Source of the DNA: [Candidatus Thermochlorobacteriaceae] bacterium GBChlB
GTDB lineage: Bacteria > Bacteroidota > Chlorobiia > Chlorobiales > Thermochlorobacteraceae
Reading direction: 5' to 3'
NCBI GenBank assembly: GCA_000724175.1
Contig: JPGV01000009.1
Location: 120,342-184,341, forward strand
Length of the DNA: 64,000 nucleotides
Positions 12,387 through 39,163 of this stretch are shown piece after piece. A model generated the notes under the pieces. That model made no database searches. It was not told the origin of the DNA and saw only the letters and a list, made by a program, of their open reading frames with translations. Positions within the stretch are counted from its first letter, which is position 1, and each line of letters begins with the position of its first letter. Made by a program: the position numbers and the translations under genes.

Positions 12387-13865
12387 TTACTTCGCCACCA
12401 TCATTTTTCTCGTTTGCGTCAAGCCTGCTGCGCCGAGTTGATACACATATACGCCGCTCGCTAAGCCCGCCGCGTTGAACCGCACCTCATACCGCCCCGC
12501 CTCTTGGCGTTGATTGACCAGCGTTGCGATTTCTCTGCCCAACACATCATACACCTTCAAACGCACCGCACTGCTCACAGGCACCTGATAACTGATGACG
12601 GTTGACGGGTTGAACGGATTAGGGTAGTTTTGAAACAGCTCAAATGTGTTTGGTTTCTCGACAGATGATTTGGGCGCGGAACTGGTTCGTGCCTGTATTT
12701 GCGAGTAGTAAATGCCTACCCCCGACGCCAAACTGTCTGTCCAAGCAACATGCAGCAGATTGCTGCTATCTATCTCTAAAGAGGGATTAGTTGCCATGTC
12801 TGAATTAAATAACTGCGTTATTGTTTGCTCTCTTGCATTCCAGTAATATAACCGCGTGGGATAACGCACTATCGCGCTCATCCAATAAAATACGATATGC
12901 AAGACCCCCTGCCTATCTACTTTTCCTATCATACTCACCAGAAACCCGCTTGATTGAACAGGGAAAAGCCATGGGGACGACCAAGATGTTCCGTCAGGCG
13001 AAGTCGCATACCCGAACCCATTAGGCAAACTGCCGCGATTCAGCGGAGTCATCCAAAAAGCATGAAATGTTTCTCTTTGGTCAACTACTAACTTTGGATT
13101 GCTCACTGGCTGTTCGGTTCCTGCAATCGGCGACGGCTCGGACCAAGTCTCTCCATTGTCCTCCGATTGGATTGTGTGAATCATGAGCGGGTTAATGCCA
13201 GTTGTGCGAAAAGTGACAAAAATCAAATGCAGTCTGCCTTGTCGGTCAACGCTTAACTCAAAGTCAGTGCTGGGTCTGGCATAGAATTGATAGCGAATGT
13301 TTCTGGTCTCCCAAACGCCACGAACTCGCCGAAGATGGGTCATATTCATCGGACCGCGGGCATTTGAGGCGATAAGCGTCACATGCACATTGTTTTGTTT
13401 ATCTACCACAAGGCTTGTAGGACCTGCGATAGAACCGCCAGCAGGGTCTCTGAAAATGCTGACAGGCGCAGACCACCTGCCTCCAGCATTATTAGAGTAA
13501 AAAATATCGGTATTGGTCGAGGGTGTTGGATTGCCATTAATGATGCCTTCCGTCCAAATAGCATGAAGCACGCCATTGGTGTCCGCCACAATGGAGCGTG
13601 GCACAGGAAAGTTAAGGGTATTTGAGATAAGTTGCTGATCTGTCCAACTCGTATTTTGGCGTGTTAAAAGTGATATTTCTCTGGTTGCAAATTGGTCTAA
13701 CCGACTTATTCCGCCAGATATGAGCATGCGTAGGGAATCGTGATATATCAGTTGCGCTCTGCCAGCCAGAGTGACAAATTGGGGAGTCATCCATTGCGCG
13801 TCGGTTTTATTGCATTTGCATAGTATCGTGATTAACGCAGCCGTCAAAACGGTTTTGTAAAGCAT
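12387..13865 (-). CDS. BNR/sialidase-like secreted protein with T9SS sorting domain
   Basis: A 492-residue exported protein. The signal peptide is short (MLYKTVLTAALITILCK, then C and AQ). The body looks like a beta-propeller, with an Asp-box SEDNGETWSEP (around 230) and related turns (SPDGTSWSSP; DSLASGVGIYYSQ), as in sialidases and other BNR-repeat proteins; sialidase active-site residues cannot be assigned. The last ~80 residues are a type IX secretion sorting domain (FELFQNYPNPFNPST ... KVYDVLGREIATLV ... GVYVYQL). The DNA at 12496-12644 is identical to 15013-15161 in the subtilase gene. It is the last gene of the minus-strand surface block, separated from the lipoprotein gene by a hairpin. 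Confidence 0.85.
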   Translation of the reverse strand: MLYKTVLTAALITILCKCNKTDAQWMTPQFVTLAGRAQLIYHDSLRMLISGGISRLDQFATREISLLTRQNTSWTDQQLISNTLNFPVPRSIVADTNGVLHAIWTEGIINGNPTPSTNTDIFYSNNAGGRWSAPVSIFRDPAGGSIAGPTSLVVDKQNNVHVTLIASNARGPMNMTHLRRVRGVWETRNIRYQFYARPSTDFELSVDRQGRLHLIFVTFRTTGINPLMIHTIQSEDNGETWSEPSPIAGTEQPVSNPKLVVDQRETFHAFWMTPLNRGSLPNGFGYATSPDGTSWSSPWLFPVQSSGFLVSMIGKVDRQGVLHIVFYWMSAIVRYPTRLYYWNAREQTITQLFNSDMATNPSLEIDSSNLLHVAWTDSLASGVGIYYSQIQARTSSAPKSSVEKPNTFELFQNYPNPFNPSTVISYQVPVSSAVRLKVYDVLGREIATLVNQRQEAGRYEVRFNAAGLASGVYVYQLGAAGLTQTRKMMVAK

Positions 13866-14903: not shown

Positions 14904-17660
14904 CTATTTTGCAATCATCATTTTTTTCGTTTGCGTCAAGCCACCTGCGCTGAGTTGATACAGATACACGCCGCTTGCCAGCCCGACTGCGTTAAACTGC
15001 ACCTCATACCGTCCCGCCTCTTGGCGTTGATTGACCAGCGTTGCGATTTCTCTGCCCAACACATCATACACCTTCAAACGCACCGCACTGCTCACAGGCA
15101 CCTGATAACTGATGACGGTTGACGGGTTGAACGGATTAGGGTAGTTTTGAAACAGCTCAAAAGACAACGGTTTGGTTTTTTCTCTTTCCGCGATGCTGAC
15201 AATAACCGTCTGCGGATAGTCGTGAACAACGCCGTCAAGGTCGTAACTGCGAAGTTTGTAAGCATAGGTTTTATCCGCCTCGACGCCTGCGTCAAGAAAC
15301 CAGTAGGTCGTGGGGCTTGTCGTTGTGCCTCTGCCGCGCAAGCGTTGGTCGAAGCGATACGAGGCAATGGTTTGGAATGCCTCGTTCTGTTCATCGTTTT
15401 CCGTTCTTCGTTGCACCTCGAAGCCGGCATTGTTCCGCTCGCTCGCCGTTTTCCAGACGAGTTCGACGCCGCCTTCGGTCTTTCGACCTTTGAACTCCGA
15501 GAGTTCAACTGGCAACGGCGAATCCGACGGGTCTGCCATTGCCCAAAGACTAAACTCAGTTACGCCTGCAAGCTCGACGTAATTTTCAACCGTGTTATTC
15601 GTGCCGCCACGAAATTCCCACGTCGACCCATTGTATCGATACAGCCTTAAATTTCCTTCGGTAAGTCCGCCCGCCGCGACTTCTGCATCGTTGTAATACA
15701 GCCGCAGCGTGGCATTAAAATTCGTTCCGCCCGTAGCGGTAATTGACACATATCGCTTCACGGCTTTACTTGCTCCCGCAAATGGCGGCGGCGTGTCTGG
15801 AAAAACCGTCACTTGGACGGTGCTAATATCTTCGGAAGCAAAGTTGAGCATCACGGCGTAGCCCGCGTCGTCGCGCCAAATGTAATTTCCCGTGCGGTTG
15901 ATATTGACCGTCGTTCCGCTTCTCGGCAGCACCGCTTGCAACGCACCAAGCGCGTAAAGTTTTCCATATCCCCAGTCGTTGCGGTGTGGCGGAATCGTTC
16001 CTGTTGCGGCGTCTTTGCGCGAACTGTCTGCGATGGCTTGTCGGAATTGGCTTGTCGAGAGAGCTGGGTTAGCTTGCAGTAAAACCGCGCCGAGTCCTGC
16101 AAGATGTGGCGCAGATGCGGAGGTGCCGCCAAAGCTGCCGTTGGTAGTAATGACATTGGTCGGTGCAGCCAGTTCGGGTTTAGGTCGGTCGTTGCGCGTG
16201 AGTCCTCGACTCGAGAAACTTGCCCGCGTTCCGTCGCTGATTTCGTAAGCGGCTACCGAGAGTGCGGAATCCGCCGTGCTTGGCGTTGTCAGGTCTTTTT
16301 CGCCGCTTAGGCGCGTTGTCCAATTGCCGTCGCCGCTAATTTTCCAGCCGTCGTATTTACCTGCGTTTGCGCCGCCCGCGATGGTTACAGCATTTAATCG
16401 AGCTGTCCAACTCCCTGACGGGAGATTCGAGATGGTGAATTGAATTTGTCGGTCGCCGTTGGGCGGGAAGGTATTGTGAAAGACCTGAATGTTTCCGCCT
16501 GCCGCGCTTTGCACGGAACCGCTTATCGGAAACGGACCATAGACCGTCGCATCAGGCGCAATGAGCGACAGCGTAAATTCGTCGGCACCGCGATACCAGA
16601 GTTGCCCGAAAAATTGATTGGTCGTTGGACGGTTAATTCCAATATCATCGAAACTGCTTGGCGCGACCACGCCCGTTACATGAATGTTCTGACCACCGTT
16701 ATTTCCTGCTGCAACGGAGAACAACGTTCCCGCGCCCGCCAGCGAACTGATTGCGACCTCCGTTGAGCGCGAGCCATCATGCGCACCGAAATTACTGCCG
16801 TAGCTGTATCCAATTGATACGGGCAACCCAAGTGCTTGCGCTTTTTGTTTGATGTAGGTGAACGCCGCAATGACGCTCGTGTCGACTAAATTCGCTGCTT
16901 TGACCAAAATGATTCCTGCCTCAGGCGCGATGCCTTTTTGTCCGCTGGCTCGACCGTTCCCTGCTGCAATGCCCAGACAAGCCGTGCCGTGTCCGTCATT
17001 TGGAAACGAAATACCTGCATCAATGGCGACATTGTCGTATTCTACGCCGTAGGTGAATCCCGGCGGCGGCGTTCCTGTCGCTGATTGATTCCATGCGGCA
17101 AGCACGCGCGTCGTGTTATCGCTGTTCTTAAAATCCTCGTTGTAAATATCGAACCCTACATCGACGATGCCGACGAGGGCGTTCACGCCTGTGTATCCAA
17201 GCGCGTGCGCGGAATCTGCGTTTGTGCCTAACCAAATTCCAACGCTCTGCTGATTACTTCGGCTCACATTCATTGAGAGCGGCATATCGGGCGGCGAGAG
17301 TTCAACGCTGCCGAGTTCCTCAATGTTTTCAAGCAGTTCCAGACGGTCGCTCGGAACAGAAATGATCAGCAAATTTTTGAGCGCAAGGCTAATCGCTCCT
17401 CCTAACGATTGAACTTGCGCTCGAATTTTTCGAATATCACCTTCGGAAAACGTGTTGTTTTTGCCGCGCGCAATGAGAGAGAGATTTTTTGGAGTGGCCG
17501 GTTCGGCAACAGAAGATAAAAACGTTTGATGAGGTGAAAGAGCGCGTTGTTTTTCGGCAGCAAGTTGAAACTTGACTGCGCCAAGTTTAGTCGTTTGGGC
17601 AAGTAGGTTTACCGCAGAGCAGCAGAGCAGCAGGCTATAAAATCCGACGCGCCGATACAT
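14904..17660 (-). CDS. Subtilisin-like serine protease with T9SS sorting domain
   Basis: A 918-residue secreted S8 peptidase. Signal peptide MYRRVGFYSLLLCCSAVNLLAQ, then a propeptide-like region (about 25-145). The catalytic triad is visible: Asp in GIVDVGFD (near 165), His in NDGHGTACLG (near 223), Ser in GGTSASAPHLAG (near 513). Linker and beta-sandwich domains follow (VELSEFKGRKTEGGVELVW and the rest), and the protein ends in the T9SS sorting domain (FELFQNYPNPFNPST ... KKMMIAK). So it is expected to be exported by Sec, then by T9SS, and attached or released at the cell surface. A longer in-frame reading from 17816 lies inside the NlpC gene and lacks sense; ATG 17660 gives a clean signal peptide and overlaps the NlpC gene's 3' end by 26 bases. 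Confidence 0.93.
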   Translation of the reverse strand: MYRRVGFYSLLLCCSAVNLLAQTTKLGAVKFQLAAEKQRALSPHQTFLSSVAEPATPKNLSLIARGKNNTFSEGDIRKIRAQVQSLGGAISLALKNLLIISVPSDRLELLENIEELGSVELSPPDMPLSMNVSRSNQQSVGIWLGTNADSAHALGYTGVNALVGIVDVGFDIYNEDFKNSDNTTRVLAAWNQSATGTPPPGFTYGVEYDNVAIDAGISFPNDGHGTACLGIAAGNGRASGQKGIAPEAGIILVKAANLVDTSVIAAFTYIKQKAQALGLPVSIGYSYGSNFGAHDGSRSTEVAISSLAGAGTLFSVAAGNNGGQNIHVTGVVAPSSFDDIGINRPTTNQFFGQLWYRGADEFTLSLIAPDATVYGPFPISGSVQSAAGGNIQVFHNTFPPNGDRQIQFTISNLPSGSWTARLNAVTIAGGANAGKYDGWKISGDGNWTTRLSGEKDLTTPSTADSALSVAAYEISDGTRASFSSRGLTRNDRPKPELAAPTNVITTNGSFGGTSASAPHLAGLGAVLLQANPALSTSQFRQAIADSSRKDAATGTIPPHRNDWGYGKLYALGALQAVLPRSGTTVNINRTGNYIWRDDAGYAVMLNFASEDISTVQVTVFPDTPPPFAGASKAVKRYVSITATGGTNFNATLRLYYNDAEVAAGGLTEGNLRLYRYNGSTWEFRGGTNNTVENYVELAGVTEFSLWAMADPSDSPLPVELSEFKGRKTEGGVELVWKTASERNNAGFEVQRRTENDEQNEAFQTIASYRFDQRLRGRGTTTSPTTYWFLDAGVEADKTYAYKLRSYDLDGVVHDYPQTVIVSIAEREKTKPLSFELFQNYPNPFNPSTVISYQVPVSSAVRLKVYDVLGREIATLVNQRQEAGRYEVQFNAVGLASGVYLYQLSAGGLTQTKKMMIAK

Positions 17661-18228
17661 ATCGTTCCTTGTAGTATTTTTCTTGAAGATTGCTGACAAC
17701 AACACCCAGTTTTGTGCTGGCGTGAACAAAATTTCCGTCGCCGATGTAAATGCCAACATGCGAGATGCCGCGCCCGCGAATGTTGAAAAATACAAGGTCG
17801 CCGAATTGTAATTCATTTTTCTGAACTGACGCGCCCAGTTTCGCCTGCATCGCCGAGGAGTGTGGCAGTTCCAAATTCAACGCACCCATATACACGCGAA
17901 AGACAAAGCCGGAACAGTCTAACCCATTTTCGTTCAAGCCGCCGTATTTGTAGCGCGTGCCGATGTATTTGTCAATTTCTTTGTTGAGCCGAGTTACCAC
18001 ATCATAAGGCACATTCGTGCGGCGAATGTTCTCGTTGTATTTTCGCAGGTCAGGGCTTGTTTCGCTAATTGAGATAGTCGCGCCGCCAGCCGTGTCGGCT
18101 TCTATCAGCCGAATTTCGTCGCGCGTTACAGGCGAGGATTTGTAGCGCTTCGCTGCTGTGGTGGTTTTGCAAGCGGTCGTCATCAATGCTGCACAGACGA
18201 GCGAAAGAACGATTGCTACTTTTCGCAT
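17635..18228 (-). CDS. NlpC/P60 lipoprotein, cell-wall endopeptidase
   Basis: A 197-residue lipoprotein with signal MRKVAIVLSLVCAALMTTAC (lipobox Cys at 20). The NlpC/P60 domain fills the C-terminal ~115 residues: catalytic Cys in LDCSGFVF, His in SHVGIYIGDG and third polar His in NFVHAS. Such enzymes (Spr/MepS type) cut peptide cross-links or stem peptides of peptidoglycan. A start at 18237 would add MCL; the ATG at 18228 gives the standard signal. It overlaps the subtilase start by 26 bases, so the two are probably one transcript. Confidence 0.93.
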   Translation of the reverse strand: MRKVAIVLSLVCAALMTTACKTTTAAKRYKSSPVTRDEIRLIEADTAGGATISISETSPDLRKYNENIRRTNVPYDVVTRLNKEIDKYIGTRYKYGGLNENGLDCSGFVFRVYMGALNLELPHSSAMQAKLGASVQKNELQFGDLVFFNIRGRGISHVGIYIGDGNFVHASTKLGVVVSNLQEKYYKERYVSARRIL

Positions 18229-26461: not shown

Positions 26462-26490
26462 AAACAGCCTTTGGTTCACAAAGGCTGTTT
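26462..26490 (-). terminator. Intrinsic terminator
   Basis: A 12-bp perfect stem (AAACAGCCTTTG 26462-26473 with CAAAGGCTGTTT 26479-26490), with TTTTGTTTTTAC after it on the minus strand. It ends the porU-to-OMP operon. Confidence 0.85.
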
Positions 26491-26514: not shown

Positions 26515-27786
26515 TTACTTGGGTTGTTTTGGTTCTTCTTGTTTCGGCTCTTCCTTCTTTGGTTCGGTCTTCGGCGGCTCAGGTTGCTTCGGCTCTTCTT
26601 TCTTCGCGGGTTCACCTTCTTTGAGGATGTTGCGAAGTTGCTGCAAATTCTTTTCGATGTCTTGGCGACGGCGGCGCAATTCCTCGATTTTACGAGCCGT
26701 TGATTCTTTGTCTTCGCCGATGTCCTCGAGTTTGCGCAGAATGATGTCCGAGCCTTGGCTTCCGGTCGTGAAATCAATCAGGCTTGGGTCGGCAGCGGAG
26801 CCAAAGCTAAGCGGCAAGATGTTGAACTGCAAGCCAAGAATAAGCCGCCATTCGGTATAGTTTGTTGGGCTGTTCGGCGGACGGCGCAGAATAGAAAATG
26901 GCGCCCCTGCGATGTAGTCGGTTTGGTCATCTCTGCCCGTGATTTGATAATCAAAGCCGAGCGTGAAGGCTAAGAAGTCAACTGGTTTAAGGCGACCAGC
27001 GACCGTAACGAATGTCATGCTCTCACGGGTGTAGGCCACAGACGGCGGCTGATTAATGAACGCCCAACCCCAGACTTCCAGCATCAGGTCTACCGCAGTT
27101 GTCGGATACTTGAAGCCTAATGAGTAGTTGATGGCGCTGCTGGTCGACGCGACTTCAATGCGGTTTGTCAGGTTATTAGAAATGTTCTTGCCTTGGTCAA
27201 GAAAGGTGTAGAAGCCGACATTCGCGTTGACATTAAACGCCTCTTTGGGGAAAAGATTATCGGCGTAATACGACAAAAGGAGGTTTATTCCGATTTCCGT
27301 TCCTCCTGCCGTGTATGGATTTCCGAAAGAGTTGAAGCGATTCGAGATGGGAATCATCACTGTTGCCATACCGCCAACATAGAAATAGTCATTTACAAAC
27401 CCAAACGAGCCGCCTTTGAGAGCAACGATAATGTGTTCGAGCGCGTTGCCGCCAGTGGCGCCAGTACTTCCATCATTGAAGTGTGTATCTTGGTAAATCA
27501 GTGGATTGATCGCCAGTGTGATATTGTTGTTAATGGCGTAATCTAAATGAATTGAGTTACGGAGAATAGAGTGTGCAACCACACTGCCAAGGTTTCCCAC
27601 ATAGGCGCCGGTAACGGTGTTGTAATCCAAGTGCGTGTAGAAGGTCAGCGCGCCAGATTTCGCGGTTAGGGCTTCTTGGGTGCGCACCATGCGACCGCTC
27701 GCAGTGTAGACATATTGTGCCGAAACCGTAGATGCAGCAAAGAGCAGAACAGAGAGCAGAAGAACAAGAGGTAAGCGTTTTTGCAT
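26515..27786 (-). CDS. Outer-membrane barrel protein with Pro/Lys/Glu-rich tail
   Basis: A 423-residue exported protein with signal MQKRLPLVLLLSVLLFAAST. The middle (25-340) alternates like an outer-membrane beta-barrel (LDYAINNNITLAINPLIYQD; TLGFDYQITGRDDQTDYIAG). After residue ~345 comes a helical coiled coil (REST...KIEELRRRRQDIEKNLQQLR) and a low-complexity tail (EEPKQPEPPKTEPKKEEPKQ). Such a tail could reach across the periplasm towards peptidoglycan or an inner-membrane partner. It is the last gene of the operon that starts with porU (57 bases from the SLBB gene). No family recognised with certainty. Confidence 0.75.
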   Translation of the reverse strand: MQKRLPLVLLLSVLLFAASTVSAQYVYTASGRMVRTQEALTAKSGALTFYTHLDYNTVTGAYVGNLGSVVAHSILRNSIHLDYAINNNITLAINPLIYQDTHFNDGSTGATGGNALEHIIVALKGGSFGFVNDYFYVGGMATVMIPISNRFNSFGNPYTAGGTEIGINLLLSYYADNLFPKEAFNVNANVGFYTFLDQGKNISNNLTNRIEVASTSSAINYSLGFKYPTTAVDLMLEVWGWAFINQPPSVAYTRESMTFVTVAGRLKPVDFLAFTLGFDYQITGRDDQTDYIAGAPFSILRRPPNSPTNYTEWRLILGLQFNILPLSFGSAADPSLIDFTTGSQGSDIILRKLEDIGEDKESTARKIEELRRRRQDIEKNLQQLRNILKEGEPAKKEEPKQPEPPKTEPKKEEPKQEEPKQPK

Positions 27787-27842
27787 GTCTCCTCCAAAAG
27801 GGCTTTTTATTGTTTTAGCTTAAACTTCTAAGGTTTGTTTCT

Positions 27843-28388
27843 TTAAGAGAGTTGTCGGTTCAAAATCAAGATAAACAGCACGGCATTCAAAATACCAAAT
27901 ATGCCTGTTGTTACGGTTACAATAGTGTTGAATACACTGAGCGCGCCGCCGGGAACGATGACCGTGTCTCCTCGAAGCAGCGGCGGAAAATTTTGTTCGC
28001 CCGTCTCAATGAATTTTTCAATATCGACCCTGACGACCTTTTCTACAACCGAGGTATCCTGCCTTGTATATCGTATCACCCTGATGTCGTCTAACTTTGC
28101 CGTTAACTGTGGCCCTCCTGCGATTGAAATCAGCGAAACCAAGTCAGTCGTGTAAGGCACGTAATACTTACCCGGACTTCCAACTTGTCCCCAGAGGTTG
28201 ATATCTATCAGAACACCTTGCCCCTGACCAAAGTAGTAAGCCGATGGGGCACCGCCTGTCGGAGCGCTTTGGGTGGACGGCGTAGATGGCTGCGAACCGC
28301 CTCCGCCGAAAACTTGCCCCAACGCATTGCTACGTAGGCAAGTTATACAAATGAGCGTTATTGTGCAAATTAACTTTATTTTTAACAT
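27843..28388 (-). CDS. SLBB domain protein with C-terminal membrane span
   Basis: A 181-residue protein with signal peptide (MLKIKLICTITLICITCLRSN), a Gly/Ser/Pro/Thr linker (GGGGSQPSTPSTQSAPTGG) and one SLBB domain (INLWGQVGSPGKYYVPYTTD, LVSLISIAGGP ... LLRGDTVIVPGG). It ends in a hydrophobic segment (TIVTVTTGIFGILNAVLFIL). SLBB domains occur in polysaccharide export channel proteins (Wza type), but the Poly_export domain is missing and no capsule genes are near. Topology: exported domain held by a C-terminal span. Position between the FN3 lipoprotein and the OMP in the porU operon suggests a T9SS-linked envelope role, which is inference. Confidence 0.75.
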   Translation of the reverse strand: MLKIKLICTITLICITCLRSNALGQVFGGGGSQPSTPSTQSAPTGGAPSAYYFGQGQGVLIDINLWGQVGSPGKYYVPYTTDLVSLISIAGGPQLTAKLDDIRVIRYTRQDTSVVEKVVRVDIEKFIETGEQNFPPLLRGDTVIVPGGALSVFNTIVTVTTGIFGILNAVLFILILNRQLS

Positions 28389-28403
28389 TCTAAAATAGTT
28401 TTT

Positions 28404-29240
28404 TTAATTCACTGTTAATCGGAATCCTGCTAATTCAGAACTTGCTCCTCTGAACCGTTCCAAACCAACTGGCAAGGTGAAAACTCTCCACCGATATTCT
28501 CGTCCGCTTTCGAGCAAGCGAAAAACTCGTGTTCCCGTCTCGCCCTGTAATTGTGAGTTAATTCGGTTGAAATTTATACGAAGCGTATCAACTGTGGTAA
28601 AGCTGGATATTTGATAGGAAACAGCAATACAGTCACTTTCTTCAAACACTTCATTTTCATTAAACAGATAGAGCTTGAAGGCATAGAAACCGCTTGCGTC
28701 TAACGGTTTTTGCCACTCAAAAGTAATTGAGCTGTCTCGACGAGACAATAAAACAGATGTAGAGGGACGCACGGGAGTAGCCCTGCGCGCCAGTTCATAG
28801 GTTACAATCGAATCAGCGAAGTCGCTTTCGCCACCTGAGCGGGAGTAAGCGCGAAGACGGTAATAGTATCGTGTGCCGATAACCACATTTGCGTCAAAAA
28901 ATACCGTGTCGGCGATTCCCAGAGGGGCTTGTGAGCCCAGTGGCAAATCGCGATAAAGTCTAAAGTTGACCGGCGTTCCGCCAATCACCTCCGTTGTTCG
29001 GAACAGGCGATAGCCTGCCAAATCGCGCTCGGTGTTGCGTTGCCATTCCAAGTAAATCGCGGTTTGTCCATACGCCGCACGGATTCCGCGCTCCACGCGT
29101 GCTGTATCAGAGTTTTTGTTGATAAACACTGGCTTTCTCGGCGTCGATTGAACAGGCGGTTGGCAGTTCAAGCGCATCGTCAGCATCAGCAGGATTATTG
29201 TGCTTAGGGCTGTTGCGATGAATGTCAATTGCCGTTGCAT
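28404..29240 (-). CDS. FN3-domain exported protein, probable lipoprotein
   Basis: From ATG 29240, 278 residues. Signal region MQRQLTFIATALSTIILLML then TMRLNC, a weak lipobox. Two fibronectin type III-like domains follow (YLEWQRNTERDLAGYRLFRT ... YYYRLRAYSRSGGESDFA; SITFEWQKPLDASGFYAFKL). In-frame ATGs at 29279 and 29246 lie upstream; the first would overlap the PorV-like gene by 17 bases, and 29240 gives the best signal. Gap to the SLBB gene is 15 bases. No enzyme motif. FN3 domains usually bind proteins or glycans, so a scaffold or substrate contact role beside PorU/PorV is possible. Confidence 0.7.
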   Translation of the reverse strand: MQRQLTFIATALSTIILLMLTMRLNCQPPVQSTPRKPVFINKNSDTARVERGIRAAYGQTAIYLEWQRNTERDLAGYRLFRTTEVIGGTPVNFRLYRDLPLGSQAPLGIADTVFFDANVVIGTRYYYRLRAYSRSGGESDFADSIVTYELARRATPVRPSTSVLLSRRDSSITFEWQKPLDASGFYAFKLYLFNENEVFEESDCIAVSYQISSFTTVDTLRINFNRINSQLQGETGTRVFRLLESGREYRWRVFTLPVGLERFRGASSELAGFRLTVN

Positions 29241-29262
29241 TGTTACCATCTGCTCATCTGTT

Positions 29263-30351
29263 TTATAACCACTCGGCAAGGTTTACGGTCAGCCCAATTC
29301 GATGCGGCGCGCCAAGTGGGCTAGATTGATACGCATAATCAATAAAGACCGCTCTGAACAAAAACAATCCTGCGCCTAAGGTCAGTTCACGGTCAAACGA
29401 GCCAACGCGCAAGGCAAAGAGCTGACGGAATCGGTATTCAAGTCCAATTGATGTAATTCCGTCGTAGCGCGTATCGCGTGTGATAGCGAAAATCAAACTG
29501 CTTGATAAGAACTCGAGCGGCTGTTTGTAGGACGCAGATAGAAACGTCGCGCGTGGGATAGAGGCTCTGGCTCTGGAATCTGTATTCCAAGAAACAGGTG
29601 TGTTGAACACGTCGCGGATATTGATACCTAAGGCAAGGTCGCCGAAAATCGGGCGGGCGACGAAATCGCCGAATTTGAACTTAATCATTGCGCCGACATC
29701 TACGCCGACGCCCGTGCCTGAAAAATTCACACGGCTATCTCCGCCGAAACTTTGCGAGATGTATTTGAATGTTATGCCAATTGGGATTTCAATCGGAATG
29801 CGAAAATACTGCCAGCCGAAATCGACCGCGTTAATCACATTTTTTGCAATTGAGAGAAACAGCGCGTCGTCGTTGTTGGAAAATGTTGCGCCTCCATTAT
29901 CGAGCAGCCCTTGTTGGATAAGGCGTAAAAATTCGCCGCTCGTGCCGAACAGTCGCGGGTCGTCGGTCAAAGGAATGTTAGCGATGCTGTTTCGAATCCA
30001 GTTGGCGGAGACGCCGACGCCATTGCCCAAGTCTTGCGCGTAGCCAATGTGAAAATAATTCGAGAGCGGTCTGCCAAGCGAGCCAAACTGATTGGAATAC
30101 ATCGTGGAGATATACTTGCCTTTGATGAGCGCAAGGGCGGAGGGATTCCAGAAAAACGCTGCGCCGTCGTATTGGTCAATCGGCGTGTATTGCCCGCCCA
30201 TGCCCAGCGCGCGCGCGCCGAGCGGGATACTTAAAAAATCTGCCGCGTAACGCGCGTCGCCTTGCGCTGTATTGGTCGTTGTTTGCGCAATCGCCGACGC
30301 AGTAAGCGCTATGCAACAGAGCGCAATTGCCGAGAGTTTTTTCATCATCAT
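29263..30351 (-). CDS. porV: PorV-like type IX secretion outer-membrane protein
   Basis: A 362-residue OMP of the PorV/PorQ (UPF0164-like) group, with signal MMMKKLSAIALCCIALTASA. The typical opening ARYAADFLSIPLGARALGMG, then AAFFWNPSALALIKGKY, is present, followed by alternating strands to the end (GLTVNLAEWL). PorV is known as the FadL-like barrel that carries T9SS substrates from the translocon to PorU. Directly follows porU (14-base gap), the pairing expected for the attachment complex. PorV and PorQ are alike; adjacency to porU favours PorV. Confidence 0.85.
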   Translation of the reverse strand: MMMKKLSAIALCCIALTASAIAQTTTNTAQGDARYAADFLSIPLGARALGMGGQYTPIDQYDGAAFFWNPSALALIKGKYISTMYSNQFGSLGRPLSNYFHIGYAQDLGNGVGVSANWIRNSIANIPLTDDPRLFGTSGEFLRLIQQGLLDNGGATFSNNDDALFLSIAKNVINAVDFGWQYFRIPIEIPIGITFKYISQSFGGDSRVNFSGTGVGVDVGAMIKFKFGDFVARPIFGDLALGINIRDVFNTPVSWNTDSRARASIPRATFLSASYKQPLEFLSSSLIFAITRDTRYDGITSIGLEYRFRQLFALRVGSFDRELTLGAGLFLFRAVFIDYAYQSSPLGAPHRIGLTVNLAEWL

Positions 30352-30365
30352 TCGGAAAGAAAAAT

Positions 30366-33300
30366 TTATTGCAACCGCGCGATTTTAATGGTCTCCTCCA
30401 ATACTCTGCCGCGCAAACTGATTCGAATTTTAGCGAAATAAACGCCGTTAGCAACAGGGTTGCCTTTGTCGTCGAGTCCCTGCCAAACGACAATCTTTCC
30501 GCCTATCGACGTCAGACTGCCCGAAAGCCTTTCTTCGAAGCCAATCGGCGCGACACCGGGTTCGCGGTAGGTGCTTATCAACCTGCCCGATGCGGTGTAG
30601 ATTTTAATTTCAAAATCGTCGGCTTGTTCCTGTCCAATAATTTCATAGCTGATGTAGGCTTTATCGCTGAACGGATTGGGATAAGAGCCATAGACCTTCA
30701 AGCGAAAACCGTCCTCGACGTTGAAGCGCAGCGTATCAGTTCTGGTCAGGTTCAAGTTGGCGTCGTAGAAGAGAAACGCAACGCTTTGCCGCCCTTCTTG
30801 AAATTCTTCCGAATATGTGATGCCGACAGTGTTGGCGTTGGCGGTGGTTTGCGGAATGCTTAGGCGTTCTTGAAATATGGCAGACGTATCGCCATTGCGA
30901 ATGACTCTGACAAAACCGGGTTCAAGATAGACGCCGTTTTGGTCTTGCACCACAGCGACAATGCGTGAACGGCGCGGCGCAAATCCATTTGGCACGTATT
31001 GTTGTCCCTCGATGCCGAGCGTTACGATTGGGCGCGTAATGTCGCTTGTTTCCATCAGCGCGTATGTTCCGAAGCGATCGACGTCGACAGACACGGTGTT
31101 GAGGTCGGGCTTAGACTGCGTCGGCACACGCAGCCAGCGTTCAAGCGACTCGGAGAATCGATAGGCAAACGTGGTGCCCTGCGCAGAGTCAATTGGGTTG
31201 AGCCGCATTGTCACGCGAAGCGGTCGCGTGAGGGCAAGCGCACTATCTACTGGTTCAATGCGGTAAGCCAAGCGCGTCGTATCGGTTCTCATCTGCGAGG
31301 CAAAGCGCATCAATCGATTGTCGGGCTGTGCGATTTTCGGCGGATTAACCAAACGCTCGACCCTAATCAGACCGTCGCGTGAGAAATTTCCCGCTGTGGT
31401 GTTCAAGACGACGTTGTTGTCGAGCGTGATAGTGTTTGCCACGTTGTTTTGTAGGCGCACAAGGTTATAGGTCAGTCGTCTTTGACTCGACAAGTTGTTG
31501 ATGTAAGTAGCTTCAATGCCTGCCGTTGCACTGTCGGCGATGACGCGCATAGCGATTTGGTAATCTCTCAACAGTTGGAAATTTGGCGGCACAGGAATTT
31601 CAGCGCGCGCTCGACCGTTGGCTGGCACTTGCACGACGGTGGTGCCGATAACGGTTGGATTTGGATTTAATCTTGGCGCTATACCGCCCGCTGTTTCAAT
31701 CGGATTGGTTACCGAATTTTCATAGAAAATCACATTGGTGCGAACTGGCGTGCTGCTCCAATTAAACACATCGCCGCCAATGACCACTTGTGTTGAGGAA
31801 TTGTAAAAATTGATGGTTGGGTTCTCATAGACTTGCAAAACGCCGCCTCGAGATTGTTCAAACGCCGCCACGTCAATCGGCGTGCCGACTGTATCCACTA
31901 CTGTTTGCGAGACAATCTCTCTGCCGCCGACGCGCGCCACGGCTTGATACGACACGCGGCTGAAGCGTTGGAAGAACTGCGCTGGCACGGTTGTGGTCGT
32001 TACGAATGCCCCAGTTGAAGTGCGCGTTGTATTGAGCGTTGCATTAAATAGTGTTCTCTCTGTTTCCAATGTGTTGGATTGCGCAGTTCCGGGCGTAATG
32101 GCTCTAACGGTGCAGCGAACCGTCACGTTTTCAATCGGCTGTCGCGCATCGAGTTGAACAGAGAAACCAATCGGTCGCTGAGGCGCCGTTCTGATAACTT
32201 CGGTTGGCGTAACGCTACGAAAGAAGGGCGCTTGGGTTCTGAACTCGACTTTGCCGTTGGTCTCGATGCCGTTGTCGCCTTGAATGTATACCTTAAACTG
32301 CCCGCCGCCGTTTGTTGAGCTTAGGAAGTTCTGGATATTTGCCCCCGTGATGTTTGGCGGTTGCGGAATTTGGACGACGAGGCTATCGACAAACTGCCCG
32401 CCGACCAGTTGCCCGATGCGTCCATTGCGCACGACGAACGGGATATTGTTTGGCGTTACCTCAAAGTTGTTTTGGTCGGTAATTCTGCCGACACCTGTGC
32501 CGTTCACCATCTCTTGAACCGTTCCTTTGATGACCAGCCTTTCGCCGACCGTCGCGATATGAGAAGGCAAGTTCCATTGTATTCTCGGTGAGCCAAGACG
32601 GGTATTTGCAACTGGCGATGCCAGTCGTACTATTGGGTCTCCGAAGACATTATATTGATACATCATGCCAGGCGCTTGTGGCCAGATCCGGCGGTTGAGG
32701 GCATAATACCGCGTCTTTGCTCGGAAAAGCATGTCAGCAATGCCTAACCCTTGAAATCTGTCGTTCAAGAGAAAATCATAGACGGATTGAGCCACGAGAT
32801 AATCGTTAATGAACCACCCCACGCCGGAAGAAGCAATAATACCAATGCATCCTTTGTTTGGGGTAAAGAGAAGTTTCTCACTTAGGGCAAGGCTTCCGAA
32901 AATTCCATCGAACGCGCCGACAAAGCATGTAAAACTTGTGATAAATGGAAAGATGCCCGACTCAGGAAGCTGGTTTACATCTTCCAGCGTCAGCAGTTGG
33001 CTATCCGACCAGATTGCGCCGCCGCCATGCCCCATGAAATTAATCACAAGGCTTCCGTCCCCGAATGCAGACCGAAGTTGGGCAAACCTTCCAACATACT
33101 TGTCTTGCGGGAACCCACCTACAATATTTCGCCCTGTCCCTGTATGCAATCGGTCTGAAAAAAAGCGACGCTCGACGTAGCGGTCTATCAATTCATCTGT
33201 TTGCACAACTTTATTGTCCTCTGCTTCGCCCGATATTGCTTCTCCTGCAATAAAAAACAGTCGGTTTTTCCATACGCCGGCGGGACTGGCAGTTTCATAT

Positions 33301-35864
33301 CGTCGTAATTTTGCCAAGTATGTGGCCACATCGTCGCGCGAAGCAGCGGGAATGCGGGAGATCTGAATTTCCGGGAGGACATCCAACTGTCCTGTATCAT
33401 CTACTCCATCAACCATCACAAACCAGCCATCTGTCGCCACTGCGCCTGCTGAAAGTGCTTGCACATACATGGTCGGGATGGCTCCCGACGAGATATTGTC
33501 AGCGAAATCATCGGCATCTCCCAGTAAGAGCACGTATGTCGGTGCCGCCTGCCACTCGTGATAGGCATAGTCGATAAAGTCGCGGATAGCGTGCGGGCTT
33601 TTAATTCCCGAGTTAAATTCATCGTAGATGTTATCAACCGTTGTTACCAAAATTTTGTCTTGCTCTCCAAGCGCGCGAAGACGCTCCTCCCGAAACTGCT
33701 TGTATTGAAACACGGGATTTCTTGGGTCATTAAAATCACGTTCGTTGATGAAATTCCGCGACGTGATGATGATAAAGTTGTAATTATTGTTTTTATCAAT
33801 CAGCCTTATCGTCGGCTCGTAGAAAGAGGCAGGCGTGAGTTTTTCATACCGTATCGGAGAAAGTTTTTTGGATGAGCTGACGGCAATGTAGTTGACATCA
33901 GCAGTGTTGATAACATCGTCTTGAAAAATCGCTCGAAAAAAACTTCCAAAGCTGCCTCCGGCTGTATCCTGTTCCAAATAGGATTCAACCGTCACATTGG
34001 ATAGTTTGCCGACGCCTTGTTTGTAAATATCAATATCAGGTGTTGTAAATCCATTTAGCTCAAACTGGTATCGTCCTGCGCTGCGGCCCGGAGGCAACGT
34101 AAATTTCAACTCATTTTCAAATGCGCGATACAACCGATTATATTTGATGTTCACCCAGTTTAAGGCGAACTGCCTTAGGTTACTACCAAATGTATTTTGA
34201 TCAATGTTCGATATCTGAAAAACAGCTCTCCCATTTGCATCTGCGATGTTCCGCTGTGCGCTTGCGGGGATTTCCGCATCTACTAGTTGAACTTCTTGTG
34301 ATCGGTCGCCTTTTCCCCAACTTGTGGTCGCTATTTGAATCGGCGTTAATTGACTTCCCAAAAAGATGTTTGCTGTATTTTGCGGCGTTACTTCCTTGAC
34401 AGTGCTGAGTCCGTGCAGCGCTACTTTGATTTGTAACGGGCGAAGGGTGGTCGGCGTTGTTCTGGCGACTCCGGGAATTTGTATGACGTAACTTTGACTT
34501 TTGCCAAAAAGCACCTCGTCCCAAAAGGTGTTGTCTCGTGCGTCGCTGTGGTTCCTCGTTCTTTGATACCTTGCCAACTCAGCACCGCCGTTAATCGGCG
34601 AATCATACACACTGAATAGCCGTTGCTTTATGCGATTCGGCTCTATGTGCAACGTCGATTGAAATGTAGAATTTCGCAGGATATTTGTCCTTGTAGGCCT
34701 TACTTCCCCTGAAATTTCAACCAAGCGCAGCCCACGATTCTGTGGCGTAGACACTTGTTCCCAATAGAAGTAATACACATTTTCGTCGGTGTAAGGGTCT
34801 GAATACATATCCGGACGAGCCGGGTCGGAGAAGGCCAAGCGATTTGGCTCGCCAATGAACTCAAAATAGTCGTCTCGATTGAACCGCCCGTCTTGTTCGC
34901 CTCTGACATATATCGGCACCTCTTTGCCTTTATTGAACACGCGAAATGTGCGCGGGTCAGCCGAAAAAAACTCGTTTGGAAATTCCGCCTCTTGCAACTC
35001 AAAAAAGCCAACGCGATGCACGCCTTCTTGATTGACAATCATACGATACTTCGGCACGACGGGCAATTGACCCAAGCCTTTTCCAAACGCAAGTTGCGTT
35101 GTATTCGCAAATGCAGTTAACTGGGCGGTTGCTGCATTTTTTTTGATTCGCTCATCGAGTTTGGAGTATGGTCCGCGCTTCGCTGGCGTCTGTCGCATCA
35201 CATTCATTTCATCCAAGCCGACCTTGAAGTTCTGCGCGTCCGCTGTATGCAGCGTTATCTCAACCGTCATCTTTTTAGCGTAGGTCAGCGTCTTTGTCAT
35301 GGGGTTGTATATGTATGGCGAGACAGTCAGGGTTGAAATCTCTACGCCGCGCATTGAGCCTGCAAACCCCCATTCTACCGCCTGCTTTGGATAGACTTCA
35401 TTTGGCTTGACCTCAACGGTGGCGGGGATTGGCTGTGCGTTCTCGATTCCAGTCGGCGTATCGGAGAGCATTTCGGGATGGAATTTCAGCGCGACATTTT
35501 GCAGCGTCCCTGTCTCCGATTGCGCAATCACCCGTGCCGATTGCACACGACATTGCAGCGTGTAGCTGAACGACGGAATTTTGTAGACAGGGTTCATCAC
35601 TTGATTTTCCCTTGTCGCCGAGCGCAGTTCAAGTTCCGTTGAACCGTCTTTCAAAGCCACTGTATCGAGATAGGGCACATCGAAGTCCAGTTTCAACACA
35701 ACCTTATTGTTCTCGCGGCTCGCAATTTGCAGCGACGGTGTCGGCGCGTCTCCAAACGCCGGCAGTGCGACAGATTGTTTTGCTGTGGAAAGCGATTGAG
35801 CTATCGCGGTCGTGGCAGCGAGATGAAAAAGCAGAAATGTTGCAATCCGACAAAGTGTCGTCAT
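30366..35864 (-). CDS. porU: Type IX secretion sortase PorU
   Basis: An 1832-residue exported member of the gingipain-like C25 family. PorU cuts the sorting domain from T9SS cargo and attaches the cargo to the surface. Signal peptide MTTLCRIATFLLFHLAATTAIA. The protease domain has YVLLLGDADDF (around 770), catalytic His in VINFMGHGGGAIWSD (near 943) and Cys in ITSFTCFVGAFDG (near 978). A long Ig/FlgD-like region and a C-terminal FlgD-like domain (YPNPFSDKAYISYEI ... GVYFAKI) follow. It is much longer than the P. gingivalis protein (about 1160). A TTG-N20-TATTTTTG promoter lies about 60 bases before the start. Confidence 0.9.
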   Translation of the reverse strand: MTTLCRIATFLLFHLAATTAIAQSLSTAKQSVALPAFGDAPTPSLQIASRENNKVVLKLDFDVPYLDTVALKDGSTELELRSATRENQVMNPVYKIPSFSYTLQCRVQSARVIAQSETGTLQNVALKFHPEMLSDTPTGIENAQPIPATVEVKPNEVYPKQAVEWGFAGSMRGVEISTLTVSPYIYNPMTKTLTYAKKMTVEITLHTADAQNFKVGLDEMNVMRQTPAKRGPYSKLDERIKKNAATAQLTAFANTTQLAFGKGLGQLPVVPKYRMIVNQEGVHRVGFFELQEAEFPNEFFSADPRTFRVFNKGKEVPIYVRGEQDGRFNRDDYFEFIGEPNRLAFSDPARPDMYSDPYTDENVYYFYWEQVSTPQNRGLRLVEISGEVRPTRTNILRNSTFQSTLHIEPNRIKQRLFSVYDSPINGGAELARYQRTRNHSDARDNTFWDEVLFGKSQSYVIQIPGVARTTPTTLRPLQIKVALHGLSTVKEVTPQNTANIFLGSQLTPIQIATTSWGKGDRSQEVQLVDAEIPASAQRNIADANGRAVFQISNIDQNTFGSNLRQFALNWVNIKYNRLYRAFENELKFTLPPGRSAGRYQFELNGFTTPDIDIYKQGVGKLSNVTVESYLEQDTAGGSFGSFFRAIFQDDVINTADVNYIAVSSSKKLSPIRYEKLTPASFYEPTIRLIDKNNNYNFIIITSRNFINERDFNDPRNPVFQYKQFREERLRALGEQDKILVTTVDNIYDEFNSGIKSPHAIRDFIDYAYHEWQAAPTYVLLLGDADDFADNISSGAIPTMYVQALSAGAVATDGWFVMVDGVDDTGQLDVLPEIQISRIPAASRDDVATYLAKLRRYETASPAGVWKNRLFFIAGEAISGEAEDNKVVQTDELIDRYVERRFFSDRLHTGTGRNIVGGFPQDKYVGRFAQLRSAFGDGSLVINFMGHGGGAIWSDSQLLTLEDVNQLPESGIFPFITSFTCFVGAFDGIFGSLALSEKLLFTPNKGCIGIIASSGVGWFINDYLVAQSVYDFLLNDRFQGLGIADMLFRAKTRYYALNRRIWPQAPGMMYQYNVFGDPIVRLASPVANTRLGSPRIQWNLPSHIATVGERLVIKGTVQEMVNGTGVGRITDQNNFEVTPNNIPFVVRNGRIGQLVGGQFVDSLVVQIPQPPNITGANIQNFLSSTNGGGQFKVYIQGDNGIETNGKVEFRTQAPFFRSVTPTEVIRTAPQRPIGFSVQLDARQPIENVTVRCTVRAITPGTAQSNTLETERTLFNATLNTTRTSTGAFVTTTTVPAQFFQRFSRVSYQAVARVGGREIVSQTVVDTVGTPIDVAAFEQSRGGVLQVYENPTINFYNSSTQVVIGGDVFNWSSTPVRTNVIFYENSVTNPIETAGGIAPRLNPNPTVIGTTVVQVPANGRARAEIPVPPNFQLLRDYQIAMRVIADSATAGIEATYINNLSSQRRLTYNLVRLQNNVANTITLDNNVVLNTTAGNFSRDGLIRVERLVNPPKIAQPDNRLMRFASQMRTDTTRLAYRIEPVDSALALTRPLRVTMRLNPIDSAQGTTFAYRFSESLERWLRVPTQSKPDLNTVSVDVDRFGTYALMETSDITRPIVTLGIEGQQYVPNGFAPRRSRIVAVVQDQNGVYLEPGFVRVIRNGDTSAIFQERLSIPQTTANANTVGITYSEEFQEGRQSVAFLFYDANLNLTRTDTLRFNVEDGFRLKVYGSYPNPFSDKAYISYEIIGQEQADDFEIKIYTASGRLISTYREPGVAPIGFEERLSGSLTSIGGKIVVWQGLDDKGNPVANGVYFAKIRISLRGRVLEETIKIARLQ

Positions 35865-35926
35865 TCAGAAGTAGTTTTTTTACTTGGTGGTTTGAAAACT
35901 GATTTGGGCATTACCATTTTCAAATG

Positions 35927-35957
35927 CAAAAATACCTGCTCGTAAACCCGTTGTCAA
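35927..35957 (-). promoter_or_regulatory. Bacteroidota-type promoter for porU operon
   Basis: Minus strand: TTG (35957-35955), 20-base spacer, TATTTTTG (35934-35927), matching TTG-N19-21-TAnnTTTG. It lies about 62 bases before the porU start codon and downstream of secA, so porU is transcribed separately from secA. Confidence 0.65.
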
Positions 35958-36005: not shown

Positions 36006-39000
36006 TTACAGTTGAGCCTTGCCGTGGCAGTTTTTATACTTCTTTCCGCTTCCGCAGAAACACGGGTCGTTGCGTCCGGGGGCTTTCTCGACGCGAATCG
36101 GCTGCTGCTTGACCGTCGGCTCTTCTTCGGCAGTTTCAACGTCGCTGCCGTTCTGTGGTGCGCCGCTATACACGCTTTTAGCTTGACTGTGCGTAGCGAC
36201 CAGCCGTTCTTTTTTAATGCGGCGCGGTTGCACCTGCTCGGATTTTTGTTCTGTCGGATACAACTTGAAAGCTAAGGAAAGCGTGTCGGCTGCAATGGAT
36301 TCCAGCATCTCGACAAAGAGCTTGAACGCCTCTTGTTTGTATTCCAATAGTGGGTCTTTTTGTCCGTAGGCGCGCAAATTGATGCCTTCCTTGACGTCGT
36401 CGATATCGCGCAAGTGTTCGCGCCATTTTTCGTCGATGACATTCAGCACAGCGAACTTCTCGATGCGCCCCATCATCTCGCTGCCCAAGTGTTCTTCTTT
36501 GCGCTTGTAAAATTCTGCGGCAGTTTGGTAAATCAAATCCGCAACGCCTTCTTTGCCAAGCCGTTGATACTCCGTCGACGTGAGCGGCAAGTCAATCGAG
36601 AGTTCGCGCAGGGTTTGCTCTTTCAAGTTGTCGGCATCGAACTCTTCTGCAAACTTTGCGGCAACCTGTTCGGCGTAATCGTGTAGCAAATCAAATATCT
36701 CGATTCTCAATCGGTCTTTGAAGAGCGCGTTGCGGCGGCGGGCATAAATAATCTCGCGCTGCTGGTTCATCACGTTGTCGTATTCCAAAAGCCGTTTGCG
36801 CGTGGCGAAATTTTGCTCTTCAACTCTGCGTTGCGCGCGCTCGATGGATTTTGTTACCATCGGGTGCTGAATGATGTCGCCCTCTTGATGCCCAAGTCGA
36901 TCCATCACCGATGCAATGCGTTCCGAACCGAAGAGCCGCATCAGGTCGTCTTCGAGCGAGACGAAAAATTCTGTGGTGCCCGGGTCGCCTTGCCGTCCCG
37001 CACGTCCGCGCAACTGTCGGTCAATGCGTCGAGCTTCATGCCGCTCGGTGCCAAGAATGTAAAGCCCGCCCAATTCTTTGACGCCCAGACCAAGTTTGAT
37101 GTCCGTGCCGCGTCCTGCCATGTTGGTTGCAATCGTTACCGCGCCTTTTTGACCAGCCTGTGCCACAATCTCTGCTTCGCGCTGATGCTGTTTCGCGTTC
37201 AGCACATTGTGGGGAATCTTTTTCATTTTCAGCATCCGCGAGAGCGTCTCCGATACCTCCACACTTGTCGTGCCGACCAACACGGGCTGTCCTGTTTGGC
37301 GTAACTCCTCGATTTTTTTAATCGCCGCATTGTATTTTTCGCGCTTGGTTTTAAACACCAAATCCTCGCGGTCTTGGCGCACGGGCGGGCGATTTGTCGG
37401 GATAACCACTACATCCAGTTTGTAGATTTCAAAAAACTCCGACGCTTCGGTTTCTGCCGTGCCAGTCATGCCTGCAAGTTTTTTGTAAAGCCGAAAATAG
37501 TTTTGCAGCGTGATGGTTGCCATCGTTTGAGTTTCACCCTCGATTTTCACGCCTTCCTTAGCTTCAATGGCTTGATGTAAACCGTCGCTGTATCGGCGTC
37601 CCGACAAAATTCTGCCCGTAAATTCATCAACGATAAGCACCTTGCCGTCTTGAACGACATATTCATCGTCTTTTTCGTAGAGCGAATAGGCGCGTAAGAG
37701 CTGCGAGACATTGTGAATGCGTTCCGAGCGTTCTGAAAACAAACGATACAACTCATCTTTTTTCTCTTGCTTCTGCGCGTCGTTCAAACTTGGGTCGCTT
37801 TGAATTTTGGCAATCTCTGTGCCGACATCAGGCAAGACGAAAAAGTCTTTGTCTTGATTGCTGTCGGTAATCAGTTCTCGTCCTTTTTCAGTCAGGTCAA
37901 TGTTGTGGAAACGTTCATCAATGGAGAAGTAGAGTTCGTCGTCGACTTCGTGCATACGGCGGGCATTGTCGCGCAGAAATTCGTTCTCGACGGCTTGCAT
38001 CAACCGAGCATTGCCTGCTTCGCCGATGAGTTTCAAGTAGCGTTTGTTTTTTGGCTGTCCGCGTTTGGCACGCAAGAGCGCCAAGCCCGCCTTGAACTCC
38101 CAGTCTTTATCGGCTTTTTCGCCCTCGGCCATCAGCCTTTCCGCCTCGGATAGAAACTTCGCGACTAAATTTTGTTGCGCCCGAACTAATCGCTCCACGC
38201 GCGGCTTCATCTCGGCGAATTTATCTGTGTTGGATTGCGGCACAGGTCCGGAGATAATCAGCGGCGTGCGGGCTTCATCAATCAGGACACTATCGACTTC
38301 GTCGACGATGGCGAAATTGAATCCGCGCTGCACGACTTCTTCCTTATCGGTTGCCATGTTGTCGCGTAGGTAGTCGAAGCCGAACTCGTTATTTGTGCCG
38401 AATGTAATGTCAGCGGCATATTGCTCACGTCGCTCCGATGAATCCATTTCAGAGAGAATCACACCGACCTTCAAGCCGTGAAATTCAAAGATAGGCGCCA
38501 TCCACTCTTTATCGCGCCGAGCTAAATAGTCATTAACCGTAACAATATGCACGCCTTTGCCTGTCAGTGCGTTCAGAAACGTGGGCAGTGTCGCCACCAG
38601 TGTTTTACCTTCGCCCGTCGCCATTTCTGCAATCTTGCCCTCATGAAGCACAACGCCGCCGATGAGTTGCACGTCGTAGGGAATCATATCCCACGTAATT
38701 TCGTTGCCAGCGGCTATCCATTTTTTTCCAACGAGTCTGCGGCATGTGTCTTTGACGATAGCAAACGCTTCGGGCAGAATTTCATTTAAAATTTCCTCGC
38801 TTGCTTCATGGCGCTCTTTTTCCAGCCGCTCGATGTCTTCTTTAATTGCCTGCACCTCTTCGAATGTCAGGTCGAGGTTTTTGAGTTTTTCTTGTTCTTC
38901 GGCAAGTGCGGCGTCGATATCGGCGAGATGTTCCCTAACGCGCGTTTTTAGCTCGTTGGTTTTGGCGCGCAAGTCGGCGTCGGAGAGCGCTTTGTATTCT

Positions 39001-39095
39001 TCCGCGTAGGCATTAATCTCGTCGACAATTGGTCGGATGCGTTTGATGTCTTTATCGTGTTTAGAGCCGAAAATTTTCTCTATGAATTTGAGCAT
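36006..39095 (-). CDS. secA: Preprotein translocase ATPase SecA
   Basis: A 1029-residue SecA, the motor that drives unfolded preproteins through SecYEG. Starts [16 protein letters not shown]. Walker A region [19 protein letters not shown]-like box [16 protein letters not shown], second helicase half ([28 protein letters not shown]), and a C-terminal Zn motif ([17 protein letters not shown]). Slightly longer than E. coli SecA because of inserts, usual in this phylum. In-frame ATG 39110 would add five residues. Upstream of the porU operon, but porU has its own promoter. Confidence 0.97.
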
Positions 39096-39163
39096 AGTAT
39101 TTTCATTCAAGTGATAGTCGTTGATGTCGTGCGGTCAGCGTCGCCTTGTTTTACCTTGTCAAA

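Follow-up and report, generated by a model that had tools for sequence, protein, structure and literature searches.

A run of five genes in the 64,000-nucleotide stretch of Candidatus Thermochlorobacteriaceae bacterium GBChlB analysed here (the window) encodes a PorU-like C25 peptidase, a PorV-like barrel, an FN3 lipoprotein, a small SLBB protein and an outer-membrane barrel protein. It raises the question whether this is the porU-porV operon of the genome with three extra genes, as a preliminary description had it, or a system apart. The PorU of P. gingivalis is held in place by PorV; it cleaves the CTD and attaches the cargo to A-LPS, the surface glycan donor that it needs and that PorZ delivers (PMC8545088). 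Our comparisons indicate that the locus is not porU-porV itself. Sequence evidence gives good support to a conserved module of separate ancestry, and strong support to the view that its C25 protein, here called PorUx, has been inherited with its own PorV-family barrel (PorVx), along with FN3 and SLBB proteins and often a second barrel protein. As to its role, we favour a conserved paralogous sortase or anchor module of the type IX secretion system (T9SS) provided with its own glycan- or anchor-delivery parts, a reading to which we give a little less than an even chance (about 0.45).

Table 1. Features of the locus (window coordinates) and T9SS genes found elsewhere in the genome (contig, with position where given).
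Feature	Position	Strand	Basis or remark
PorUx (C25 peptidase, 1832 aa)	30366..35864	-	Pfam C25, 234 bits
PorVx (PorV/PorQ family, 362 aa)	29263..30351	-	NCBIfam PorV_fam, 79 bits
FN3 lipoprotein	28404..29279 (TTG start)	-	Pfam fn3, 25 bits; Cys39
Small SLBB protein	27843..28388	-	Pfam SLBB, 24.1 bits; AF2 model
Outer-membrane barrel protein	26515..27786	-	AF2 model; Foldseek
Intrinsic-terminator-like stem-loop, operon end	26462..26490	-	12 pairs, T tail
secA	36006..39110	-	directly upstream of the PorUx gene
Promoter-like match TTGACA-17-TATTTT	35927..35957	-	chance-level frequency
Canonical PorU	C20:226959		947 bits
PorU2	C37		452 bits; locus with glycosyltransferases and a Wzy-like protein
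Canonical PorV	C9:4593		286 bits
PorQ	C38		265 bits
Closest PorV2 relative	C15		245 bits
PorZ	C24		408 bits
SprA	C16		

The five open reading frames (26515-35864) are real, all on the minus strand and tightly spaced (Table 1). From PorUx to the barrel the spacings are 14, -17, 15 and 56 bases, so that the uninterrupted series of short gaps first described holds for three junctions, but the fourth is an overlap of 17 bases between the PorVx gene and the FN3 gene when the latter is read from its TTG. Were translation to begin at the in-frame ATG at 29249, a gap of about 13 bases would follow the PorVx gene; the FN3 start is probably this ATG or one nearby rather than the TTG at 29279. The terminator at the end of the run is real as a pattern—one such structure, with 12 paired positions and a T tail, where shuffled regions contain 0.075 on average—while the promoter-like site had to be dropped as evidence, 17 such matches being found where 14.5 +/- 4.3 are expected by chance. 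Upstream, and likewise on the minus strand, secA is only 141 bases from the PorUx gene; the two are neighbours as a rule in Chlorobiales, in a Bacteroidota lineage (f4), in the lineage f21 and in Kryptonia, which makes a co-transcription of secA and the module possible.

The canonical PorU and PorV encoded elsewhere in the genome rule out the locus as its only or canonical PorU-PorV pair. PorQ and PorZ are both present too, so the module does not replace them, and the best matches to NCBIfam PorU2 and PorV2 (NF052324, NF052325) likewise lie elsewhere, which sets aside an assignment to that pair. With the canonical PorU, PorV, PorQ and PorZ thus accounted for, what the locus holds is a full module of paralogues that has a C25 protein and a PorV-family protein to itself.

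The scores and trees agree with this. PorUx reaches 226.6 bits with the NCBIfam PorU model (NF033707, cut-off 420) and 214.9 bits with that of PorU2 (NF052324, cut-off 450); in a maximum likelihood tree built on 61 C25 domains, those of the module fall into one clade (98/96), separate from the clades of PorU (100/99) and PorU2 (100/99). PorVx scores 79 bits with PorV_fam (PorV/PorQ subfamily NF033709, cut-off 90, which the orthologue L041 passes with 93), 59.8 with PorV2 and only 32.1 with PorV (NF033710), far from the cut-off of 250; it also falls in a clade of its own (94/98), apart from PorV, PorQ and PorV2. The sole match of its profile in the PDB is PorV (6h3i). Neither protein is therefore the orthologue of P. 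gingivalis PorU or PorV that the names first given to them implied. The module shares with the PorU-PorV-PorQ-PorZ complex a PorU-type C25 protein with a probable sorting tail, a PorV-family barrel, a sortase-like dyad and a genome with SprA; it differs from it in that the canonical four are present elsewhere in the same genome and that FN3, SLBB and barrel proteins are not among the known partners. Like PorU2/PorV2 it is a further PorU/PorV-type pair, with a comparable C25 score (215 bits) for PorUx, but it stays below both cut-offs and in a separate clade.

Some observations concern T9SS-related genes outside the module. Two SprA genes were found in this genome (G000:C16:17299 and G000:C5:511), one apparently broken by a contig end; there are likewise two in the Thermochlorobacter genome G248, so that a pair of translocons may be usual in this family. 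The PorU2-type C25 protein (G000:C37, L063:6562-14704) adjoins a Wzy-like protein and several glycosyltransferases, neighbours which hint that PorU2 too is tied to surface glycan. The window proteins encoded at 12387-13865 and 14904-17816 each carry a clear T9SS sorting domain of type A (41.5 and 46 bits, respectively) and are likely T9SS cargo; the latter resembles subtilisin-type proteases. At L059:8544-9671 a PorV-family protein is fused to a ComEA-like helix-hairpin-helix domain.

The gene order is not peculiar to this genome: it recurs in Thermochlorobacteraceae (f1), Chloroherpetonaceae (f2), other Bacteroidota lineages and Calditrichota. All f1, f2 and f4 genomes with the barrel have the order PorUx-PorVx-FN3-SLBB-barrel, some of the loci being broken by contig ends; secA stands upstream wherever the contig extends that far, and the identity of PorUx goes down to 28%. 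The Calditrichota loci, with the same five genes in the same order, were picked up when named genomes were scanned with the PorVx profile. The module occurs without the barrel in Kryptonia, in a Latescibacterota-like genome and in the lineages f21 and f34; in three KSB1-like loci only the C25 and PorV-type genes are present. Close or overlapping genes are thus kept in order across deeply diverged FCB lineages.

Among 248 genomes of the phylum the PorVx scores are two-peaked, 14 genomes exceeding 385 bits and the next reaching 198; the same 14 carry an SLBB protein of at least 124 bits, and all have SprA. SprA and at least one C25 protein are also found in 21 of 21 further genomes tested, most of which encode another C25 protein, about 1320-1370 aa long, 13 of these being placed in the canonical PorU clade. 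The module is thus found in SprA-bearing genomes, mostly with canonical PorU as well. The opposite situation, genes scattered widely away from porU in genomes without T9SS, was not encountered: no close SLBB or barrel orthologue was found away from a C25/PorV-like pair, and none in a genome without SprA. Chlorobiaceae are without SprA, PorVx and the barrel, their more distant SLBB proteins staying in polysaccharide loci. The co-occurrence with SprA is supportive, not decisive, and counts as weak evidence because T9SS is near-universal in the lineages compared.

PorUx is composed of a signal peptide, a PorU-like N-terminal region, a C25 domain (residues 697-1081) accompanied in Pfam by the C25 propeptide, an extra region of about 600 residues and, at about residues 1728-1829, a probable type A T9SS sorting domain; the match to the latter is weak (19.9 bits with Por_Secre_tail, whose cut-off is 27) and falls where such a domain is expected, with its motif kept in the alignment. 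The protein is about 460 residues longer than canonical PorU. Its catalytic pair H946/C980 is invariant, His and Cys being present in 31 of 31 aligned proteins. In G212 (L105:4470-5920) the C25 gene adjoining PorVx is reduced to 145 aa and matches weakly, with PorVx and SLBB kept.

The exported FN3 protein has FN3-like domains, and its Cys39, invariant in 11 orthologues, is consistent with the lipoprotein it had been taken for. The SLBB protein scores slightly below the Pfam cut-off (E 3e-5; cut-off 27); its AF2 model (pLDDT 80) has a signal peptide, a flexible linker, one beta-grasp and a C-terminal helix of 32 residues, and its best Foldseek matches in the PDB are the class-3 OPX protein WzaB (9n9a) and Wza. 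In class 1 OPX proteins an amphipathic C-terminal helix spans the outer membrane; the helix of the SLBB protein is amphipathic in outgroups, with a moment of about 0.5, and consists largely of apolar residues in the lineage of the window. Pfam gives no match in it to the Poly_export domain (PF02563), which is common to all OPX proteins (PMC9603273), so that by definition it is not an OPX protein. With WzaB and its porin Wzp it shares the SLBB beta-grasp fold, a C-terminal helix as in Wza and the adjoining outer-membrane barrel; it differs from them by the missing Poly_export domain, by the lack of a co-polymerase nearby and by a barrel of 12 strands instead of 18. Relatives outside the module, matched over most of their length, adjoin Wzz/GNVR/BY-kinase genes in Chlorobiaceae and other Bacteroidota families; these resemble it in size and in their hydrophobic C-terminal end, but belong to polysaccharide loci and are found also in genomes without T9SS. 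A Wzz/Wzc-type co-polymerase gene, present beside these paralogues, was not recognised beside the SLBB gene of the window. In L103 a sugar-nucleotidyltransferase-type gene lies between the SLBB and barrel genes; an ORF of equal size occupies the equivalent place in L095.

The barrel protein is modelled (AF2, pLDDT 77) with 12 strands (residues 47-324), a C-terminal coiled-coil helix (342-391) that presumably faces the periplasm, and a disordered Pro/Glu/Lys tail. The coiled coil is kept in 14 relatives whereas the charged tail is confined to the protein's own family, which rules out the tail as a conserved device spanning the periplasm, the role first imagined for it. The barrel protein has no Pfam and no credible NCBIfam match, and a search for solved relatives by sequence returned only unrelated coiled coils. 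The nearest folds in Foldseek are the 12-strand barrels of FapF and COG4313, alike in topology but only 9-12% identical and without a shared sequence family; such likeness between a model and known folds says little on function, and the modelled barrel could equally belong to a generic porin. A periplasmic coiled coil is present in FapF too; that of the module barrel is C-terminal. Other forms of the barrel were noticed: a tandem second copy in Chloroherpetonaceae and in G133, a divergent paralogue after purL, just past the module, in one genus (L035:10237-11997, L036:16487-18307), and in the present genome (G000:C15, L047:6816-9221) a distant paralogue of 491 aa with an AgmX/PglI-type C-terminal domain, adjoining an MlaD-type protein.

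From these likenesses we infer a sortase activity, a PorUx-PorVx pairing and a glycan step. By analogy with PorU and PorV, PorUx would be exported via SprA, would be retained on the surface by PorVx, and would serve as an additional sortase for part of the CTD cargo. The SLBB protein, possibly as an OPX/Wza-like ring, would join with the 12-stranded barrel and FN3 lipoprotein in bringing or positioning an acceptor, and the acceptor joined to the cargo by PorUx would be a glycan other than, or added to, the PorZ-delivered LPS. Against this reading, no polysaccharide co-polymerase is encoded near and the SLBB protein is without Poly_export. Since the modules of Kryptonia, f21, f34 and the Latescibacterota-like locus have no barrel gene next to them, the barrel cannot be essential to the mechanism in every carrier. 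The three KSB1-like loci with no more than the C25-PorV pair also count against this reading, as does the possibility of a generic porin. The earlier idea of a T9SS attachment or cargo-glycan module thus survives in part: a conserved envelope module tied to T9SS, missing from the greater part of the phylum sampled, does stand here, with attachment or glycan supply as the best lead, but it is not built on porU-porV itself.

The main rival to a sortase module makes of PorUx a cargo, i.e. a gingipain-like surface C25 protease with PorVx as its private shuttle and anchor, the FN3, SLBB and barrel proteins then helping in its anchoring or assembly. Barrel partners dedicated to a single T9SS client are indeed known, SprF binding SprB and PorP binding PG1035 (PMC9143113); PorUx has a sorting tail and some 600 residues past its C25 domain, and the canonical PorU of the genome would be able to process it. 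The parallel is incomplete: in those pairs as here a FadL-type barrel adjoins one client, but PorVx is of the PorV type, the tail of PorUx is type A-like, and three more partners are conserved. Moreover PorUx-type proteins resemble PorU over several stretches reaching beyond C25, including the N-terminal part and the C-terminal end, and in the PDB comparison they prefer PorU to gingipains (95 vs 57 bits). A surface protease is not obviously expected to retain four ordered partner genes across such a range, and the relationship of the SLBB protein would be left unexplained; we therefore hold PorUx as cargo to be rather unlikely.

Another possibility is that the SLBB protein and the 12-stranded barrel form a small polysaccharide exporter sharing the operon by chance, C25, PorV and FN3 proteins acting separately on secreted proteins. 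OPX proteins without a part spanning the outer membrane pair with barrel porins, a pairing established in Myxococcus (PMC9603273); the SLBB homologues at Wzz/BY-kinase genes and the occasional absence of the barrel or of SLBB go in the same direction. But SLBB similarity at the level of the module was found only in PorVx genomes and beside PorVx, no synthase, flippase or co-polymerase is adjacent and Poly_export is absent; we hold this exporter reading to be improbable. Chloroherpeton glides, and G005, a genome of Chloroherpeton size, carries the module, which could then serve gliding or surface adhesion with PorUx processing an adhesin. In Flavobacterium gliding depends on a T9SS client, SprB (PMC9143113). 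Yet the module is also found in many lineages that are not known to glide (Kryptonia, Calditrichota) and no Gld- or SprB-type gene was recognised nearby; a gliding module appears very improbable.

Returning to the sortase module, we found no paper joining type IX secretion with SLBB, or T9SS with Calditrich-, in a search that left out most subscription journals and preprints, for which reason an earlier description may exist; nor was a described family found with all five parts. The parts are of known kinds; their assembly, ancestry and spread were not found described within the literature searched. To our knowledge, nearly all that is known of T9SS anchoring comes from P. gingivalis and Flavobacterium. 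A bolder version of the sortase reading, in which a dedicated sortase-barrel pair, glycan-fed by an OPX-like SLBB ring and the 12-stranded barrel, provides a second, LPS-independent route of cargo anchoring by a module of old standing in the FCB superphylum that most of the sampled Bacteroidota lack, is doubtful when taken as a whole.

The syntenic five-gene module, extending from relatives of green sulfur bacteria to Calditrichota, would mean that the attachment step has at least one old branch that is unstudied, with the SLBB protein, the barrel and the FN3 lipoprotein as named candidates for delivering the anchor to the sortase. The order being found in several phyla and not in the model bacteria where type IX secretion has been studied, a step of this secretion may have been missed; phyla carrying the module are predicted to sort their cargo into separately anchored sets.
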